Assembly (NCBI RefSeq): GCF_020405225.1
Contig: NZ_CP084473.1
Location: 62,001-126,000 of the forward strand
DNA from: Natrinema sp. DC36
GTDB taxonomy: Archaea; Halobacteriota; Halobacteria; Halobacteriales; Natrialbaceae
Direction of reading: 5' to 3'
Length of the DNA stretch: 64,000 nucleotides
Of this stretch, positions 19,690 to 38,320 are shown in pieces (positions within the stretch are counted from its first letter, which is position 1; the number at the start of each line of letters is the position of its first letter). A program made the position numbers and the translations under genes. The notes beneath the pieces were generated by a model. That model saw only the letters and a list, made by a program, of their open reading frames with translations. It did no database searches and was not told the DNA's origin.

Positions 19690-19850
19690 ACACATGACAT
19701 CCTCCCCGGCGTTTACGCCGGGGTTTCCTCGCGCTGGGAGTCTCGGCTATGCCGAGTCCACGGAGGCAACTTGCGGGTTCGTGTGCTCCTCGTTGGAACG
19801 GGGAGAGCGTGGTGACTCCAGCCATTCGTGACTGTCCCACTTGAGGCACA
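19690..19850 (-). ncRNA. candidate omega RNA (reRNA) overlapping the tnpB 3' end
   Basis: TnpB guide RNAs arise from the tnpB 3' end through the right end of the element. Here that stretch ends in an 8-bp perfect stem with a TTTA loop. Presence is inferred from the family; boundaries are not visible. Confidence 0.35.
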
Positions 19851-21030
19851 CAGGCCGTGCCATCGGCCGTGCTACGTCTGTTTCGTGCCGCCTCAGGAAC
19901 GTCTCGCTTGCCGAAAGGTCTGCGTGGCCCTCGAAGCCGCAGGTGCAGGTCAACGTGTCCTGGTGTCGCGTCGTGTCCTCGGTCGAACCGCAGTTCGGAC
20001 ACGTCTGTGAGGTCCATGCTTCCGTTCGAATCTCGACGGTGATACCGTACTCCTCGCCGGTGCAACTGAGCCGCTTGATGAACCGCCGGAACGCCCAGAA
20101 GTTGTGCAACTTGGCGTTCGTCCGAACCGACCAGTGCGTCTCAAGTACGTCGGTAAGATCGCCGACATACACTGTCGAAACGCCCTCGTCGTACAGCCGT
20201 TCGATCAAGTCGCGAGCGATCTCGTCCATTGCGTGGTTGCGCCGTCGCGTCCGGCGTCGATACAGTGAGTTGATTTGCTTCGAACTGTACCGGCCTTCGC
20301 GGAGCTTCGATTGCAGTTCTGCGATCCGTTGCGTATTCTCGCGGAACCGCTTGAACAGGTCGCGACCTTCGTACAGGTACTGTTCGCCAGTCGAAACCGT
20401 ACAGGCGACGATATTGTTTGCGCCGATGTCCAGAGCGGCGGTTTCGTCCGCCAGTGGGTGTGCCAGTCGAGAATTGTCGATAGTGACTGGCTGAAAAGCC
20501 CTGAATGTCTCGCTCACATCGTCGTAATACAGTTCCAACCGGCCCTGTTTGTCGTACTCTTTCCAATTGGGTTCGCCGCGAACCTTGAGCCGGAGACGCT
20601 CGCGGTATCCAAGACCGTACTCCTCTTTCAGGTCTTGGCCGACAAGAAGTTCGAGACGGGAGTGTTCGCCCCATTCGACCGAGTACGAGGTGTTTCGGAT
20701 GTACGTTCGCAGGTCGCGTCCCTCGTCTTGGTTGCCCCAGAAGCCGGGCTTGCCGTTGGCTTCGTCCTTTTCTCTGAGTGCGAAGAACGAGCGCCACGCT
20801 TCGCGGTTCTTTCGTTCGATCTGCTGAACAGTCGACGCGCCGAGCGTACCGCCGTACCGACCGCGGTACTCGTCGATCTCCCAAACGTCGCCATCCGGGT
20901 CGTCGAAATTGGTACGGCGCTGATAATTGATCTCGTTCCAGAGAGCGGCTGAAGCGTCCAACAGTCGATGAAGCAACTCCTCGTCCTCGTCGGACTGGGG
21001 AACTACTTCGAACTCGTTGGTGCGCTTCAT
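19747..21030 (-). CDS. tnpB: TnpB, RuvC-II glutamate apparently missing
   Basis: 427 residues, full length. Ruv[21 protein letters not shown]. RuvC-II region: [20 protein letters not shown], where the catalytic Glu of the usual (V/I)xEDL is Gly. Zinc ribbon: [26 protein letters not shown]. Ruv[16 protein letters not shown] with Asp. TnpB is an RNA-guided nuclease that promotes retention of its element. Without the Glu, cleavage is doubtful unless another residue substitutes. The C-terminal tail is the usual Pro/Ser-rich extension. Divergent from the small gene at 21087. Confidence 0.88.
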
Positions 21031-28304: not shown

Positions 28305-29285
28305 ATGGAATCAGAGAAGCGAGTGTATACGTGTGAGATTTGTGGAGCCGAGTTCGAAACACCAGGAGCAAAGGGCGGTCACAAACGAGCGCATCAGCTC
28401 AAGATCAGCCGCGAAGAATTACTAGCGGAACTTCGGCGGCTGGCGAACGTCTCGGAGCGGGCACCGACAATGAAGATGATGGACGAACAGGGTGCGTATT
28501 CTGCGGCTTGTATAAGGCAACGGTTCGGTACTTGGGGAGATGCACTACGAGAAATCGGATTATCACCGAACATCAGATACGACATTCCGCCAGCGGAAGT
28601 CAAAGAGGACATCCGAACGATCGCAACAAAACTTGGACGTCCACCGACGTCACCAGAGTACCGTGCACGAGGGGATTTCTCCGTTAGCCTTGCACAAAAT
28701 TTGTTTGGGAGTTGGAATGAGGCACTAGCAGCTGCTGGGTTTGAGCCACAGTTCGAACACCGAATCCCCGAGGATATTCTCCTCGATGAAATCCGGACGC
28801 TTGTCGAGGCACTGGGGAAGGTCCCAACAGCGACCGATATGGACGAGTACGGTCGGTTTTCTTGTCGGTGCTATTTTGATCGATGGGACGGCTGGCAGGC
28901 CGCAGTTCGATCTGCTGGCCACGAGCCAGTTGGTCGTCCATCAGGCCCTGCCAACGGCAACTGGAAAGCGGACTCAAAGGATGAGCGACGATACTACGGG
29001 CCGAACTGGAAGGCTCAGCGGGCGAAGGCGCTTGAGCGAGACAGCTACGTTTGTCAAACACCAGGTTGTGACTGGTCACAGACTGCCCATCGTGAGGCGT
29101 TCGGGAAGGGGCTGCACGCCCATCATATCCAGCCGCTCCGCTCATTCGAAGACAGACACGACAATGTGGACTTCAAGCAGGCCAACCGGCTTGAGAATCT
29201 CGTGACGGTTTGCGTTCAGCATCATCGCCTATGGGAACGAGTCTCGCCGCTTAGGCTGGATATGAACCGGTCACCTCGAGACTAA
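28305..29285 (+). CDS. HNH endonuclease with C2H2 finger and HNH-associated repeats
   Basis: 326 residues. An N-terminal C2H2 finger reads YTCEICGAEFETPGAKGGHK RAH. Three homing-endonuclease-associated repeats follow, each with a W/F-x-x-x-L-x-x-x-G core: FGTWGDALREIGLSP, FGSWNEALAAAGFEP, WDGWQAAVRSAGHEP. The C-terminal HNH reads CQTPGCDWSQ then LHAHHIQPLRSFEDRHDNVD and LENLVTVCVQHHRLWE. Repeats and finger probably contact DNA. It could be a free-standing homing-type nuclease or a defence nuclease; it is the first gene of the defence-rich stretch and has its own leader element. Confidence 0.85.
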   Translation: MESEKRVYTCEICGAEFETPGAKGGHKRAHQLKISREELLAELRRLANVSERAPTMKMMDEQGAYSAACIRQRFGTWGDALREIGLSPNIRYDIPPAEVKEDIRTIATKLGRPPTSPEYRARGDFSVSLAQNLFGSWNEALAAAGFEPQFEHRIPEDILLDEIRTLVEALGKVPTATDMDEYGRFSCRCYFDRWDGWQAAVRSAGHEPVGRPSGPANGNWKADSKDERRYYGPNWKAQRAKALERDSYVCQTPGCDWSQTAHREAFGKGLHAHHIQPLRSFEDRHDNVDFKQANRLENLVTVCVQHHRLWERVSPLRLDMNRSPRD

Positions 29286-31363: not shown

Positions 31364-32656
31364 ATGAGTGACGGGAAGCTGGCCCTCGTTAATGAAATAG
31401 CCGACAGTGGCGACCTTATTGTAGGTTATATAGACGGTTCCGGGTCAGCCACCGTATCTAATCATACGGACGATGCCGAAGTCGGTGATATTGTCGAAGT
31501 TGAAGAGACCGTCCTTGACAGGGACAAAGCCGTAGAAGTCGTCAAGAAAGGAGGCTACGACCGAGGCAGAACTGTCGGGGTTGTAGAAGCCGTCTTCAAC
31601 CAGACCATTGCAGTAAGAACCGAAAACGGACTCGTCGAAATCAATCGTCCCGATGAAACCATAGAGAAAGGATACACTATCGCAATAACACCTTCTCAAA
31701 CATTCTCTCAGGTCTTAAGCGAGGAACCCATCGAGATCACGCCCAAGCCAGATCTCGAAGTAGACGCAATCAACCTGAACCTGGGATCTGACAACGAAGA
31801 TGAGCAAGAAGAAACCGAGCAAAGGAGCTTATACCAACCTGAAAATATCGAAGATGTCATATTTGACGATGTGATCGGGTTACAGGACGCAAAAGACCGG
31901 CTTACAGAGGCAGTGAGCCTTCCAATGGAAAAGCCCGACAAGATGGCTGAATTCGATCTTGAAGGTCGGTTCGGAATCCTGTTCTACGGGCCTCCAGGCA
32001 CCGGGAAAACCATGATGGCAAAGGCAGCTGCCAACGAATGGGGATCTTCCGACTCATTCTTCCATATCGGTGGACCAGAAATTGTGAGCAAATATTACGG
32101 AGAGAGCGAACGCCAGATCCGAGATGTCTTCGAAGCTGCCAAACAGAAGGCAGAGGAAGAAGACGAACCCGCAGTAGTATTCATCGACGAGATCGACAGC
32201 GTCGTACCACGCCGGGATCGTGCCGATGAGACGGAACGCCGGATCGTTGCACAGTTTCTGAGTGAGCTAGACGGGTTAGAGGATCGAGGAGACATCGTAG
32301 TGATCGGTGCAACCAACTTGGTCGAGATAATTGATCCAGCGGTGCGACGACCAGGACGATTTGACGAGGAGATTGAATTCAGCCTGCCTGACGCCGGAGA
32401 ACGAAGAGATATTCTAAAAGTCCACTCACAGAATATGCCTATTTCCTCATCCGTGGATTTCCAGGATATCGCGGAGCGGACTCGTGGATGGTCGGGTGCC
32501 GACCTTGAATCCATAGTAAAGAAATCCGGACTCATAGCGGTCAAAGAAGACCGGCCAGAAGTTCATCACGAGGACTTCATGATCGCTTTCGAAAGGTTTG
32601 ATGAGCAAAGGGAGGTTAAACGCCAGCAGATAAAGGAGGTGAGGCAGCGGGAATGA
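31364..32656 (+). CDS. AAA+ ATPase (Cdc48/PAN-like single ring)
   Basis: 430 residues. Residues about 1-145 are a beta-rich N-domain (LIVGYIDGSGSATVSNHTDD, GRTVGVVEAVFNQTIAVRTE). One AAA module follows: Walker A FYGPPGTGKTMMAKAAANEW, pore-loop-like SKYYGESERQIRDVFEAAKQ, Walker B VVFIDEIDSV, sensor-1 VIGATN, arginine fingers RRPGRFDEEIEF, lid GWSGADLESIVKKSG. It lacks the second ring of Cdc48 and the coiled coil of PAN. Its stop overlaps the DUF6414 start by 4 bases, so the two are coupled. A specialised unfoldase in a defence module is likely. Confidence 0.85.
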   Translation: MSDGKLALVNEIADSGDLIVGYIDGSGSATVSNHTDDAEVGDIVEVEETVLDRDKAVEVVKKGGYDRGRTVGVVEAVFNQTIAVRTENGLVEINRPDETIEKGYTIAITPSQTFSQVLSEEPIEITPKPDLEVDAINLNLGSDNEDEQEETEQRSLYQPENIEDVIFDDVIGLQDAKDRLTEAVSLPMEKPDKMAEFDLEGRFGILFYGPPGTGKTMMAKAAANEWGSSDSFFHIGGPEIVSKYYGESERQIRDVFEAAKQKAEEEDEPAVVFIDEIDSVVPRRDRADETERRIVAQFLSELDGLEDRGDIVVIGATNLVEIIDPAVRRPGRFDEEIEFSLPDAGERRDILKVHSQNMPISSSVDFQDIAERTRGWSGADLESIVKKSGLIAVKEDRPEVHHEDFMIAFERFDEQREVKRQQIKEVRQRE

Positions 32657-33966
32657 CCCGTCTAAAAATCCGTCAAAGAATGTATTCAGTGGTGTCACGG
32701 CTACAGCGATGGCTTGCTAATAGCCAATTTGACGATCTCCGAGAATTCGTTTATCTGGACGAAATCAGTGTAAGGAGTCTCTTAGCGTCTACTGGTGAGG
32801 GCGGTATTGTTTCTGAGACGGTCGATGAGGAGATGCGAAGGCGACGTTCTGGGTCTAGTGTAGGCGGTTCGATATCTGCTGGCTCGGCCTCTGTCAATGC
32901 GAAGGTTTCAGAGGAAAGTGAGCATCAAAGGACGACAGTTGAGACTCGGAACTACGACTTGATTCAGTCAAAGTTTACTAGGTTGTACAGGAGCGATGTA
33001 GTGGAGAAGAAGCTGTCACTAGATCAGATACCGAAAGAAGATGAATCTGTAGACGACCCATTTTCAGGACTTGCAACCTCTGAGTTGACTCGTGGTGATG
33101 TAGTCGAACTTCGGGTGAATATTTCCGCAAATCTCTTGTTCAGGTTATATCGGGCAATTGATTACTTCGCTGACGCGTTCGAAGACCAAATTGATTCTGA
33201 TATCGAAGAAATGCTGGAGCTGATCGGCAGCAGTCTTGGCAATCGTATTCCGGTTGTCGGCAAGGCTGTTGATTACAAAGTTGTCGACGAAGAAGACGGG
33301 AAGACGATCAAACGCAGCGCTGAACTTGATAGCGACGAGAAGGTGGACGCAGAAGATCTTGAGATTGTTACACTGCTTAATTTGGATAGTCTGTGGGTTG
33401 ATCCGATACAGACCTTATTCAACAATGACCGGTTCGTGGTCTACTGTAGAGTGGAAGATGTGGATATTGATCGTTGGTATCCGTTGAAGGTGACTCGTGC
33501 GATTAATAGTCTCTCAGAGCCGGCGGCGGAGAATTTGAACCGGGAATTCGAACGAGGACTCCAAGATATAAGGAACCAATTATCTGAAATTCAGAATTTT
33601 ACCGACTGGTCCACTGATTCAGCTGCGCAGTGGAGCCGAGATATTCAGCAGTACACCGAATCTTTGGAAGACGAGTACGATCAAGATGTTTCTGAGGACG
33701 AACAGGAGCAGTTGATTGTAGAGGCTTTGGGAACTGTTGATGTTGGCGATGAGGTTAGTCAAACAGCACAACGAAAGAAGGTGCTTAACGCCTATACAGA
33801 TTCGTTCATCGAGATGCTTGACCTAGATCCTATTGGTGATGAGAAACGTCAGCAACTACGCTCAGACGCTTCAGAAACTGTTGGGGCTGGCAACCAGATC
33901 GATGAATTAGACGGAAGTAGCAACGTATTCCGAATTGAAGCGAAAGCCGTAGCGATGTACTGGTGA
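32653..33966 (+). CDS. DUF6414-like protein
   Basis: 437 residues. After a basic leader (RLKIRQRMYSVVSRLQRWLA), the text DLREFVYLDEISVRSLLAST and GEGGIVSETVDEEMRRR matches the start of DUF6414 proteins; a Gly/Ser loop (SGSSVGGSISAGSASVNAKV) follows. The middle has VVELRVNISANLLFRLYRAI and the C-terminus is acidic and helical. Function is unknown in the family. Here it is translationally coupled to an AAA+ ATPase, which suggests it is the substrate or effector partner. Confidence 0.65.
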   Translation: MTRLKIRQRMYSVVSRLQRWLANSQFDDLREFVYLDEISVRSLLASTGEGGIVSETVDEEMRRRRSGSSVGGSISAGSASVNAKVSEESEHQRTTVETRNYDLIQSKFTRLYRSDVVEKKLSLDQIPKEDESVDDPFSGLATSELTRGDVVELRVNISANLLFRLYRAIDYFADAFEDQIDSDIEEMLELIGSSLGNRIPVVGKAVDYKVVDEEDGKTIKRSAELDSDEKVDAEDLEIVTLLNLDSLWVDPIQTLFNNDRFVVYCRVEDVDIDRWYPLKVTRAINSLSEPAAENLNREFERGLQDIRNQLSEIQNFTDWSTDSAAQWSRDIQQYTESLEDEYDQDVSEDEQEQLIVEALGTVDVGDEVSQTAQRKKVLNAYTDSFIEMLDLDPIGDEKRQQLRSDASETVGAGNQIDELDGSSNVFRIEAKAVAMYW

Positions 33967-34031: not shown

Positions 34032-34244
34032 TCATTCTGCGCTTCGTTTTATGTTTAGAAAGCGAACCTCGGCACTCATATAATCTAAGTGGAATATAGG
34101 ATATACAGAATCCAATTCGTTATCAACTATATCTGAATAATCTATATCTGACTCAATCAATCGAAGAATCCGGCGTATCTCCATCTTCAAATGATAATCC
34201 TTCTCCGGATTGAGCGTAGCCTGTTCCAGCTTATCCGAGATCAT
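34032..34244 (-). CDS. small helical protein (70 aa), unknown
   Basis: MISDKLEQATLNPEKDYHLK then MEIRRILRLIESDIDYSDIV and DNELDSVYPIFHLDYMSAEV. The composition fits an expressed protein. It lies convergent to the DUF6414 gene and divergent from the decayed KOW-like gene. No family recognised. Confidence 0.5.
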   Translation of the reverse strand: MISDKLEQATLNPEKDYHLKMEIRRILRLIESDIDYSDIVDNELDSVYPIFHLDYMSAEVRFLNIKRSAE

Positions 34245-34329
34245 TTACACAGGATATAGTGACAGGAACTAATATACATCCGGGATCTCCCAATGGATTT
34301 GTTTCCATCCCCATAGTCTGTATAGGAAC

Positions 34330-34594
34330 ATGATGGCAACAATAGGAGTAGAGACGGAAGACAAATCGGAGAAGATTATAAGATCGGTGACCGGGTCCAG
34401 CTTGTTCTTGACAAAGAACTAAGTCCAGACAACTAGTAGCACGGCAAGAAGGTCATCTCACCGGTATAGAATTCGATGACGTCGGCTCGGTAACTGGAAA
34501 TCCTAAAGACAACTTTGTGTACAAGATTGAACTGGATGGCGGAGAGTCACCGGACCTCCATCTTAGAAGGTGCGATCTCAAAAAGCCGGAGTAG
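34330..34594 (+). pseudogene. small beta-barrel (KOW-like) protein, decayed
   Basis: Across three frames the text DYKIGDRVQLVLDKELSPDN (then two stops) and EGHLTGIEFDDVGSVTGNPK then DNFVYKIELDGGESPDLHLR and RCDLKKPE-stop makes one small SH3/KOW-like barrel protein of about 80 residues. At least two indels or stops are present. It lies directly before the QueC-like operon and may once have been part of it. Confidence 0.55.
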
Positions 34595-34688
34595 TTACCG
34601 AATCTTTAGTACTAACACGAAGAACCCAAGGCGCTGGTGTCACTGGCCAATAACTATTTATGGTTAGTGTTTCAAACTTTCTATATAA

Positions 34689-35168
34689 ATGGGAAGTGCA
34701 TCTGCTAGTTCCTCAGCTGCATCTAATATAGGATATGAGGATGCGAAAAAGGGGATGAACAAAGCCTTAGAATCAGACAGAACTCAGATCGCAGTTGATA
34801 TCGCTGTGACAGGAGCTTTAGCAGTACAGCCCAACGGTCCGGCAAAAGTCACGACCTACTCCTACCTCAAACACACAAACACCTTTATCCAGACAACGAA
34901 CCAGGACGGTATCCAAGCAGGTATCGAGGCCACCGGAAAAAGCGCTATCCAAGGAGAGATCGTAAACCAGATCTCTGGAGGAGTAGTTCACAGCTCACAG
35001 CAAGCGGTTTCAGCGGCTTCTGAAAACGAGACAGTAGGAAGAGGGGTTGATGAAGTAAACAACAACTTTGGCACGCCTTCAGAGGAAGCCGCGAAAGCTA
35101 CTCTTGGAAGCGTTATCTCAAACGGTGCTGATGCGATGAAGACAAAAGGTTCGAACGACGATGAGTGA
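34689..35168 (+). CDS. MGS-starting small protein, QatB-like candidate
   Basis: 159 residues: MGSASASSSAASNIGYEDAK then KGMNKALESDRTQIAVDIAV and TGALAVQPNGPAKVTTYSYL. The C-terminal half is Gly/Ala/Ser-rich helical (EIVNQISGGVVHSSQQAVSA). A mature N-terminal Gly followed by a Ser/Ala-rich flexible tail recalls QatB, which I remember as starting MGTS. In QueC-bearing defence operons the N-terminal Gly has been reported as the site of deazaguanine attachment. Nothing else in it is recognisable. Overlaps the next gene by 8 bases. The QatB link rests on context plus N-terminus only. Confidence 0.55.
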   Translation: MGSASASSSAASNIGYEDAKKGMNKALESDRTQIAVDIAVTGALAVQPNGPAKVTTYSYLKHTNTFIQTTNQDGIQAGIEATGKSAIQGEIVNQISGGVVHSSQQAVSAASENETVGRGVDEVNNNFGTPSEEAAKATLGSVISNGADAMKTKGSNDDE

Positions 35169-35586
35169 AGATCCGTTCGTAGACGATGAGGAGGCGGAAC
35201 AGAACATCCAGGAGTTCATCGAAGAACATGGGAACGAAGGCCTGTTTGTGGTCTACTTCCGCCAGTTCATCTTTAGCTTCATAATACAGGAACTGAAGTC
35301 TAGCGACGACGAAATCAACGATATTGGAACACAGCTTCATCTCAGTGCGGACGGCGATCAGCTTCTCAAAGATCAACGCGAACAGATGTTGGAACGGTGT
35401 GAGCACTGGGCTCAAGACCTCGTCGACCATCTGAAAGAAGATGACGTCGTATCCGAGGTCATTGAATCCGGAGACATCTCTCGGCTTGAAGACGACGACA
35501 TTGAAGAGCGCGTTCATCAAGCGATACACGAGAAGTTCGGCGAATGGGAAACCCTTCTCGAAACATTTCTGGAGGACCTGGAATGA
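35161..35586 (+). CDS. unknown acidic helical protein in the QueC-like operon
   Basis: 141 residues: MSEDPFVDDEEAEQNIQEFI then GLFVVYFRQFIFSFIIQELK and acidic helices to the end (FGEWETLLETFLEDLE). It has one hydrophobic aromatic helix near residues 28-44. Overlaps its upstream neighbour by 8 bases and the QueC-like gene by 4 (ATGA), so all three are translated as a unit. Family not recognised. Confidence 0.6.
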   Translation: MSEDPFVDDEEAEQNIQEFIEEHGNEGLFVVYFRQFIFSFIIQELKSSDDEINDIGTQLHLSADGDQLLKDQREQMLERCEHWAQDLVDHLKEDDVVSEVIESGDISRLEDDDIEERVHQAIHEKFGEWETLLETFLEDLE

Positions 35587-37022
35587 CGACGGAGAAATAC
35601 TTCGCTCTGCGGCATCCTGAGTTTCGGAAACGGGCTGACTCGAAGATCCGGGAAAAGGATGAGACGGACTACGAAGAGGTTATAGCGGTTGTTCCGTACA
35701 AGGAGGACAAGTTTCCTCATGAGGAGGATTATAACAGAAGGGTACCTGCGGAGGCAGATGAGTCTATCAAATACGATCACTCTATCACACATCACCTATT
35801 CGGAGAACGGGTACCAGATATTGTTTTAGATATTGTTGAGATCTCGGTGATCACGTTTGCTGCTGATAAGGCGGCAGACCGCGGAATCCAGATTGACAAC
35901 GAGGATCTTGATGAGAGCCGGCTTAACACCCGGAACATCAAACTACAGATCCCGGTCCTCTCACCAAAGATGGCGACCGAAGAGATGGAACAGCTCTACT
36001 CGGAGATGGTGTCTCATATGACTCGAGATATCATCGAGTACGACTTCCAGCTCGTCGATAAGCAAGAATCCGTAGAGGTATCTACTAATCAGAGTGAGTT
36101 TGATGCGGTTTGTCTTCTTTCAGACGGATTGGACAGCACAGCCGGGATCTACCATAATCTGAGGCGAGAAACAGACTCGGAGCACGTTACAGTCAACTAT
36201 GGAAGCGGAGCCGGATCGAAGGCCAAAGAGATAGCGGACCAAGCAGATGTTAGTTCACGGATCTTCAGAACACAGTACAACGACAAGGGTGAATCGACAC
36301 AGTTCTCTCGAGGACTGCTTCATCTTAGCTTTGCAGCTGTAGCGGCGTCAGCCCATGGAACCGAAGAAATACGGTGTTTCGAAAACGGGATTATGGCCCA
36401 GTTCCTCATACTATCAGAGGGCTGGATGACCACTAGAACAGTTTCACCGCTGTTCTTGACCTACTTCAACAAGATACTGGACAACGCTCTTCCACAACCC
36501 ATCGAAGTCAAGAACCCGTTCGTCAACCTCACCAAAACAGAAATCATAAACAAAATTCCCAGCACAGAGTTAGTCCAGAAAACCCTTTCCTGTCCTCACA
36601 AATCCTGGTTCGGACATAACAACTGCGGGCTTTGTATGCCCTGCCTCATACGGAATATCGGTATCATCAGAAGCGACCATGAAATCCCATTAGAAGTTCT
36701 ATCCAGATACGATCCACTGCTTTCAGCGGACTTCGAATACCAATCCTTCGAGGTAGATGGCAACGAAAATCTGAACAATTCTGCAAACACTCCAAGTATA
36801 TTCTTCAAAGGAATAACGGAGATCGCATACTTCTGTCGCCGTATCTTAGAGGATGACCCTCGCGATCTCGCAACTGAGCATCCGGAGCTATTGAACAAGC
36901 CGATATACGAACAACACCGTCAATTCGCTGAAAACTTCACAGAAGCTTTAGAACTAATTTCCGAGCAGAACTCTACCATCCAGACCCTACTAACCGGTCA
37001 ACAGCACAAACTACCCCAGTAG
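35583..37022 (+). CDS. QueC-like PP-loop ATPase (QatC-like)
   Basis: 479 residues from ATG 35583, set by the ATGA overlap. About 175 N-terminal residues with no recognised fold precede a PP-loop domain: FDAVCLLSDGLDSTAGIYHN (SxGxDS), then VTVNYGSGAGSKAKEIADQA. The QueC-type zinc site reads LSCPHKSWFGHNNCGLCMPC (C-x10-C-x2-C-x2-C). QueC makes preQ0 (7-cyano-7-deazaguanine); long QueC homologs in Qat and type IV CBASS operons instead serve immunity. The N-terminal extension and operon context favour the defence subclass. A housekeeping QueC is about 220-230 residues, so this is not the tRNA-modification enzyme. Confidence 0.8.
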   Translation: MTTEKYFALRHPEFRKRADSKIREKDETDYEEVIAVVPYKEDKFPHEEDYNRRVPAEADESIKYDHSITHHLFGERVPDIVLDIVEISVITFAADKAADRGIQIDNEDLDESRLNTRNIKLQIPVLSPKMATEEMEQLYSEMVSHMTRDIIEYDFQLVDKQESVEVSTNQSEFDAVCLLSDGLDSTAGIYHNLRRETDSEHVTVNYGSGAGSKAKEIADQADVSSRIFRTQYNDKGESTQFSRGLLHLSFAAVAASAHGTEEIRCFENGIMAQFLILSEGWMTTRTVSPLFLTYFNKILDNALPQPIEVKNPFVNLTKTEIINKIPSTELVQKTLSCPHKSWFGHNNCGLCMPCLIRNIGIIRSDHEIPLEVLSRYDPLLSADFEYQSFEVDGNENLNNSANTPSIFFKGITEIAYFCRRILEDDPRDLATEHPELLNKPIYEQHRQFAENFTEALELISEQNSTIQTLLTGQQHKLPQ

Positions 37023-37033
37023 CCCTGTAGGAT

Positions 37034-37441
37034 CTATCGATTTTCACGGATCTGTTCCTGCAAATCTCTAAACGACTGTTGGAGCCGAGCCATCTGCGTT
37101 TCAAGCTCAAGGACACGGTCAACTAACTCCTCGTACTCCATCTCCTGATATTTCTCCGTTTTTCGATCGCTGTCTCGGAATACTAGCTCTGCATCTTCAG
37201 TGAGGTTTACCCTTTTCGGTGCTTTGAAGACCCGTTTCTGACGGTCGACAACTCGCTCAGTGTAACCTTCCGGTTTGTGGATAGTGATCAGTCCGAGATT
37301 CTTGAGCTTTGTGAAACAGTAGTTGACCTCGTGGTTCTCCAACGTGGTTTCGGAAGTGATCTTCTGGACATCATCATAGCCTTCCCGAATCTTCTTGAGG
37401 ACCGCTAAATCCTTCTCTCGGAGCGGGTATTCGTCACTCAT
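37034..37441 (-). CDS. winged-helix protein with C-terminal coiled coil
   Basis: 135 residues from ATG 37441: YPLREKDLAVLKKIREGYDD then VQKITSETTLENHEVNYCFT and KLKNLGLITIHKPEGYTERV, a winged helix. A heptad-like tail follows (YEELVDRVLELETQMARLQQ, SFRDLQEQIRENR). Convergent with the QueC-like operon (11 bp gap). Probably its regulator or an unrelated plasmid regulator. Confidence 0.65.
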   Translation of the reverse strand: MSDEYPLREKDLAVLKKIREGYDDVQKITSETTLENHEVNYCFTKLKNLGLITIHKPEGYTERVVDRQKRVFKAPKRVNLTEDAELVFRDSDRKTEKYQEMEYEELVDRVLELETQMARLQQSFRDLQEQIRENR

Positions 37442-37527
37442 AGGGCCCTTCGTTACGTTGTTGAGGGCTACAACGCCGTAATTCAATCACGCCAAATCCC
37501 TCAGTAGGTGCGCCAGTCCTGCACAGA

Positions 37528-37557
37528 GTCTTTCGTCCCCTCAATGGGTGAGGGGCT
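37528..37557 (+). promoter_or_regulatory. leader element 7, upstream of TFB copy 1
   Basis: GTCTTTCGTCCCCTCAATGG then GTGAGGGGCT; about 64 bp before ATG 37594. Confidence 0.5.
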
Positions 37558-37593
37558 CGCCGTACTGGCGGGTTCCCGAATACGGTGAGAACG

Positions 37594-38267
37594 ATGGCAA
37601 CCAGAGACATCTACGAGACTGGCTTCGACGAAGACATCCGTACGGAGTCGAGTACGAACCAATGTCCCGAGTGCAACGGGCAGATCACGACGAACGCTGT
37701 CGAAACAGTCTGCGAGGACTGTGGCCTGGTCATCGACGAACAACGCATCGATCACGGGCTGGAGTGGCGGGCATACGACGAGAAGTGTGAGCGAATGGGC
37801 GCCCCGCTAACTGCTGCTCGCCACGATCGGGGCTTGTCGACGGAAATCGGTCATGGCACCGACGGCAAGCGAAACGAAGTCTCCGGGGAGAAGCGATGGC
37901 GGCTCGCTCGGATGCGACGTGAGTAGACCCGTGGACATTAGCGACCGAAAGCGGAACGGAATCTCGCACACGGTTTGGGCGAGGTTCGCCGGCTGGCGAG
38001 TGCCCTCGAGCTCTACGACTCGGGGCGCGATCAGGCGTGTCAGCTCTTCCGAAGTGCCCAGAACGAGGATCTGCTTCGTGGCAGATCCATCGAGGCCATC
38101 GCTGCGGCCAGCGTGTACGGGGCCTGCCGGTGTAACGACCTCTCACGGTTGGTGGACGACGTCAGCGAGATGGCCCGCATCGCGGAGTCACGAGTCACGA
38201 ACGCGTACAAAACGCTGAACGAAGAGCTGAGGCTCCCTGCCGAGCCCGTCTCCCCCATATGTTCGTA
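37594..38267 (+). pseudogene. TFB (TFIIB-like) copy 1, decayed
   Basis: Starts MATRDIYETGFDEDIRTESS with zinc ribbon CPECNGQITTNAVETVCEDC, then GAPLTAARHDRGLSTEIGHG and a TAG at 37924. One frame over it continues as KAERNLAHGLGEVRRLASAL, GRSIEAIAAASVYGACRCND and RVTNAYKTLNEELRLPAEPV, then departs from TFB text at about 38250 (SPICS-stop). One nonsense, one frameshift and loss of the second cyclin fold: non-functional. Confidence 0.8.
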
Positions 38268-38320
38268 AAGCCGCCAGTACGGACGACACGGCGGACGCGA
38301 CGCTCCTCGGGATCGTCCAC

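Follow-up and report, generated by a model that had tools for sequence, protein, structure and literature searches.

The A-B-C operon and its copies

The window analysed here is the whole stretch of 64,000 nucleotides from Natrinema sp. DC36, and it contains an operon of three overlapping genes, referred to below as A, B and C. The operon, the features of its 5' end and the segment in which it is duplicated are located as follows.

34198..38083, no strand, outer limit of a duplicated segment, 94.7% identical to the copy on contig C3 of the same genome
34655..34663, + strand, TATA-like box (TTATTTATG-like), 26-34 nt ahead of the start of A (at about -35 to -27)
34689..35168, + strand, gene A, 159 aa, N-terminus MGSASASSSAAS, partner and putative substrate
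34692..34694, + strand, codon for Gly2 of A, the putative acceptor once Met is removed, conserved without exception among A homologues
35161..35586, + strand, gene B, 141 aa, acidic and all-helical
35583..37022, + strand, gene C, 479 aa, QatC-like PP-loop/zinc enzyme

Direct reading of the window confirmed the noted overlaps of exactly 8 bases between A and B and exactly 4 bases between B and C, and the same gene order recurs in 11 further haloarchaeal loci. The start of A can be considered secure, since an in-frame TAA lies immediately 5' of its ATG and the upstream TTATTTATG-like box agrees with it. This box precedes A at equal spacing in the window and in loci L010 and L006, a position consistent with a leaderless A transcript. 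A, B and C are under purifying selection, with dN of 0.08, 0.09 and 0.19, respectively, and dS >1.6 between the window and its nearest relative. Two copies of the operon are present in the genome (5.1 Mb in 7 contigs), one on contig C2 (320 kb), to which the window belongs, and one on contig C3 (334 kb); A is identical in both, B 97% and C 99% identical, and the immediate flanks are without match.

Linkage and distribution

Of 391 haloarchaeal genomes, 13 have C and 11 have A, for which an independent profile search was made; all 11 are among the 13 with C, and in the remaining two genomes C is truncated or incomplete close to the end of a contig. A always adjoins C (hypergeometric P of co-occurrence about 1e-19), and the A-B-C order with overlapping genes holds throughout the haloarchaeal loci, including those of divergent haloarchaea. 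In other genomes, too, the linkage of both A and B with C is strict, and the two are not accidental neighbours, as the original prediction of a three-gene unit required. Gene B of Natrinema salinisoli (L026:7520-7930) carries an internal stop codon, and A and C are open at that locus.

A like layout exists in three non-haloarchaeal genomes from two further groups of the phylum (L064, L098 and L065), whose hosts are probably methanogens. These trios comprise an A-like protein starting MGSQNRS or MGGRKS, a middle gene of 94-96 aa and a QatC-like enzyme; they illustrate the layout rather than homology of A and B, because neither protein aligns convincingly with its haloarchaeal counterpart. The trio C was not found in the viral contigs searched, and phage records yielded only distant QatC-like matches in two Listeria phages, OR848142 (H44) and OR846725 (H45), where the QatC-like genes are unannotated. 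A literature search found no description of such an archaeal system.

Gene C and the QatC family

The following elements were recognized within C.

35583..36107, + strand, QatC-type N-terminal extension, C residues 1-175, matched by QatC models from residue 76-79
36120..36137, + strand, PP-loop SDGLDS, C residues 180-185
36432..36440, + strand, Thr-Arg-Thr, C residues 284-286, aligned with QatC T278/T280 (PMC13279940)
36591..36644, + strand, zinc site C337, C348, C351 and C354, all four zinc cysteines present

Pfam QueC matches C at 4.4e-13, and the QatC models outdo it both in quality of match and in the part of the protein covered: PADLOC QatC matches at 1.6e-29 (C residues 76-361) and NCBIfam QatC at 5e-33 (C residues 79-361), and the QatC chains 9vlk and 9zee of the PDB match with an E of 3.9e-12. 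The extension of 175 residues, originally called unexplained, is a QatC-type N-terminal domain because the QatC models match better and over more of C; its residues D95, R100 and R117 are conserved. On NCBIfam NF041925 (QatC) C reaches 114.6 bits, below the whole-protein curated cut-off of 280 bits for assignment to QatC, and the distant C of L014 and true QatC reach 154.7 and 523 bits, respectively.

The PP-loop of the window clade, SDGLDS, departs from the strict SGGxDS, and distant members of the L014 type have SGGLDS. T284 and T286 stand where QueC and Cap9 have the Tyr and Asp that bind 7-carboxy-7-deazaguanine (CDG), and Thr-x-Thr also occurs in the non-haloarchaeal relatives (TRT in L064, TYT in L065). 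C also keeps ENG, P-x4-TK and the QatB-facing loop, which in QatC packs against QatB and is absent from QueC and Cap9 (as defined in PMC13279940). The haloarchaeal C proteins group together in a maximum-likelihood tree, as a clade with support of 99-100% that stands apart from canonical QatC, a third QatC-like group and the genome's own QueC (L001). The latter is encoded on the main contig together with QueE and QueD and has kept the YPDC and VPxRN motifs, neither of which was found in C. The proposal that C is a defence-type QueC homologue has therefore held up, the QatC lineage being supported and clustering with housekeeping QueC being absent from the tree. Judged by these models and this tree, QatC is the closest known family of C, which stands as a separate clade. 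Archaea-only QueC clusters 7, 8 and 10 have been named but left unanalysed (PMC13329287), and the trio enzymes may fall into one of them.

Other relatives were observed in the course of these searches. The third QatC-like group comes from IMG/VR contigs (L078, L081, L083, L086, L087 and L089-L094) and consists of proteins mostly of 640-735 aa, with an upstream partner of about 260 aa that starts MGHxxLGxLPRSRKW; no qatA or qatD was seen on these contigs, and several of the loci adjoin a recombinase-like gene. A Bradyrhizobium plasmid (L044:546-6299), possibly with a further variant, combines a QatC-like protein and a Gly-rich partner that starts MGSGS with a protein of 1041 aa and an ASCH protein. 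At L102:1717-3517, a QueC-like protein of 213 aa lies beside a sugar-kinase/nucleoside-deoxyribosyltransferase-like ORF, an arrangement that resembles 'cluster 4' of PMC13329287.

The N-terminus of A and the split-QatB reading

A is a small, Ala/Ser-rich protein. Every haloarchaeal A starts MGS or MGT, and the MG[ST]A start is invariant though identity drops to 29%; M1, G2, A4, S9 and S12 are invariant across these proteins. Non-haloarchaeal A-like proteins start MGS or MGG, canonical QatB starts MGTS and the partner in the third group MGH, against a baseline of about 6% (8/135) of the other ORFs in these neighbourhoods that start MG. The N-terminal Gly that had drawn attention to the partner is thus a conserved feature. 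In CBASS a deazaguanine is attached to the exposed Gly (PMC11996544), and Qat defence depends on Gly2 of QatB (PMC13279940).

B contains 43 Asp/Glu in its 141 residues. Its structure model is all-helical (pLDDT 76), and a fold search of the PDB with this model gave no informative match, which by itself excludes nothing; the model of A (pLDDT 38) is unusable. The QatB model NF041924 matched neither A nor B, nor did either single profile match QatB significantly, and identity of A alone or of B alone with QatB was accordingly dropped as a candidate assignment. The best alignments of A alone and of B alone nevertheless fall each in the expected part of QatB. Joined into one profile, A+B aligns end to end and collinearly with a profile of 17 bacterial QatB sequences (HHalign score 43.8, probability 81%; 45.4 and 84% without the N-terminal tails). 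Among the controls, none of 280 block shuffles in four sets exceeded 32.3, B+A in swapped order scored 27-29 and reversed profiles about 20-23; rotating A+B circularly, by which much of the order is preserved, still gave 33-41, so that the margin of the match is modest.

The end-to-end alignment of the joined profile makes the partner look like a split QatB, and the reading of A+B as QatB divided over two genes has moderate support. On this profile evidence, A would probably correspond to the QatB tail together with the N-terminal helices, and B probably to the C-terminal helical domain of QatB. The suggestion that the 141-aa protein fills the role of QatA or QatD fares less well than the reading of B as the second half of a split QatB.

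Neighbourhood of the trio

Two features beside the trio call for mention.

31364..33966, + strand, AAA+ ATPase and DUF6414 pair, optional neighbour
37034..37486, - strand, winged-helix/coiled-coil gene, non-core, near the trio in several other loci

No qatA (KAP-type NTPase) or qatD (TatD-type nuclease) was found beside the trio in the loci read, which bears out the absence noted at the outset. This agrees with the reported finding that QatB and QatC alone suffice against some phages (PMC13279940). The AAA+/DUF6414 pair, once considered as the missing component, adjoins the trio in only two loci, the window and Halosimplex L006, and its absence beside the second copy, on C3, and elsewhere rules it out as a core component. 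The label IetA was rejected for the AAA+ protein, on which generic PAN/CDC48 models score far better.

The immediate neighbours of the trio vary, and many copies lie on plasmids. Defence genes occur nearby in some loci, namely type I restriction and GmrSD enzymes in L065, an Mrr nuclease in L030 and Hma-like genes in L029. At 37585-38268 of the window, a broken TFB gene is split between one ORF with the zinc ribbon and another with the TFIIB repeat, and in L031-L033 an intact TFB-like gene is divergent from the trio. Elsewhere in the window lie a release-factor (aRF1/eRF1) homologue of 380 aa encoded on the 320 kb contig (25260-26402, - strand), a protein with HNH homing-endonuclease-associated repeats (28305-29285) and an IS605 OrfB/TnpB-type gene that Cas12f models match too (19747-21030, - strand).

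Comparison with known systems

The trio resembles the QatB-QatC core of Qat (qatABCD) in that C has the QatC-type N-terminal extension, the Thr/Thr pair, the zinc site and the partner-facing loop, and in that the adjacent upstream partner starts MG[ST] and, as an A+B profile, gives a collinear match to QatB. Unlike Qat, the trio is archaeal, its partner is apparently split in two genes and lacks the P-x-W tail motif, QatA and QatD are missing, and C falls below the QatC cut-off, in a separate clade and with the PP-loop SDGLDS. Type IV CBASS (Cap9 plus CD-NTase) likewise pairs an enzyme of the QueC fold with a neighbouring protein that has an N-terminal Gly motif, but A has no CD-NTase match, no Cap10 was seen adjoining the trio, and C differs from Cap9 in its large extensions and in having Thr/Thr instead of the CDG-binding Tyr/Asp. 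The PP-loop and zinc fold are common to C and the preQ0 synthase QueC, whereas C is twice as long and lacks YPDC, VPxRN and YxQxHxxE, and QueC itself is a separate gene of the same genome, linked to queD and queE.

The CDG pathway in trio hosts

QueC, QueD and QueE were surveyed in 12 haloarchaeal trio genomes. Five (G000, G143, G085, G112 and G051) have a full-length QueC together with QueE and QueD, and in the other seven (G318, G145, G093, G207, G319, G126 and G074) none of the three was found; six of these seven carry an intact C within an intact trio. All three non-haloarchaeal hosts have QueC, QueD and QueE matches. Several candidates in the seven genomes were rejected: weak QueE-like matches in G074 and G145 belong to mycofactocin maturase, pseudo-SAM and NrdG2 proteins, the QueC-like protein of G319 scores 76 bits against the 150 required by the family, and the PTPS paralogues of G318, G207, G319 and G126 look like the second copy of other haloarchaea, which is not QueD. 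No PTPS family member of any kind was found in G145, G093 and G074. The simplest reading is that these seven hosts salvage preQ0, because archaeosine TGT is present in all trio genomes checked.

The absence of the three genes from 7/12 hosts, together with Thr/Thr at the CDG residues, argues that C does not use host-made CDG and that the group on Gly2 of A is something else. The attachment of a CDG-derived deazaguanine, as originally stated for relatives of C, has thus become doubtful for the trio, though salvage or a virus could be a source of CDG.

Proposed mechanism and alternatives

We consider it somewhat better than an even chance that A-B-C is an archaeal Qat-like module cut to the QatB-QatC core, in which the conjugated group is probably not CDG; both conjugation and antiviral action are inferred. 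In this module, A, with a flexible N-terminal tail and N-terminal helices, and B, with C-terminal helices, would form a two-chain QatB that docks on C. Removal of Met would expose Gly2 of A, which could then enter the active site of C, where a small carboxylate, adenylated with ATP, would be transferred to the N-terminal amine of A. The conjugated group would probably be other than CDG, and the complex would restrict viruses or plasmids without QatA or QatD. Rather more tentatively, at a likelihood somewhat short of even, C may perform an undescribed conjugation, of a non-CDG, ATP-activated carboxylate onto the Gly of A, within an archaeal defence complex with a split QatB. Bacterial QatC, by extension, may likewise work without CDG.

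The first alternative keeps the Qat-like module and has C conjugate a CDG-derived 7-deazaguanine, host-made or salvaged, to A. Cap9 acting on its CD-NTase offers a precedent (PMC11996544), and the pathway genes are matched in 5/12 haloarchaeal and 3/3 non-haloarchaeal trio hosts; the seven hosts without them, six with intact trios, and the replacement of the CDG-holding Tyr/Asp by Thr/Thr make it unlikely. Less likely again is that the trio has no part in defence and serves to mature a small modified protein with a role in plasmid maintenance or signalling or as a halocin-like toxin, C acting as the N-terminal modifying enzyme. The plasmid location of many copies, the size and composition of A and the changing neighbours would suit such a maturation cassette; they are set against the antiviral QatC proteins as the closest relatives of C, an A+B match to QatB better than that of shuffles and restriction genes adjoining some loci. 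Virus-supplied CDG might also act as the trigger in pathway-less hosts, so that modification of A reports infection. Halovirus HVTV-1, which encodes the four preQ0-pathway proteins (PMC6884629), could be such a source and several trio hosts lack the pathway, but in the 5/12 hosts that make CDG themselves the trigger would be permanent, and the Thr/Thr active site is unlike a CDG site; we regard this as very improbable. Finally, despite its Pfam QueC match, C can virtually be dismissed as a misannotated housekeeping QueC with A and B as accidental neighbours, given its separate grouping in the tree, its missing QueC motifs, the strict linkage of the trio and the true QueC/QueE/QueD set on the main contig.

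Significance

The Qat-like module bears on a wider problem, since the group that QatC places on QatB is a stated open question, the activity not having been reconstituted by the authors (PMC13279940). Hosts with an intact trio and without QueC, QueD and QueE provide a clean natural test of the conjugate chemistry: a modified A in such hosts would mean that the group has a source other than host-made CDG. With many hosts unable to make the molecule that is supposed to be attached, the chemistry may be new, and a two-chain QatB may be easier to dissect. The trio would be an archaeal relative, not described before, of the antiviral Qat system of bacteria, and its enzyme probably attaches a small molecule to the glycine that leads the partner protein; the trio extends Qat-like systems to archaea and reveals a Gly-led partner and QatC as the conserved parts.
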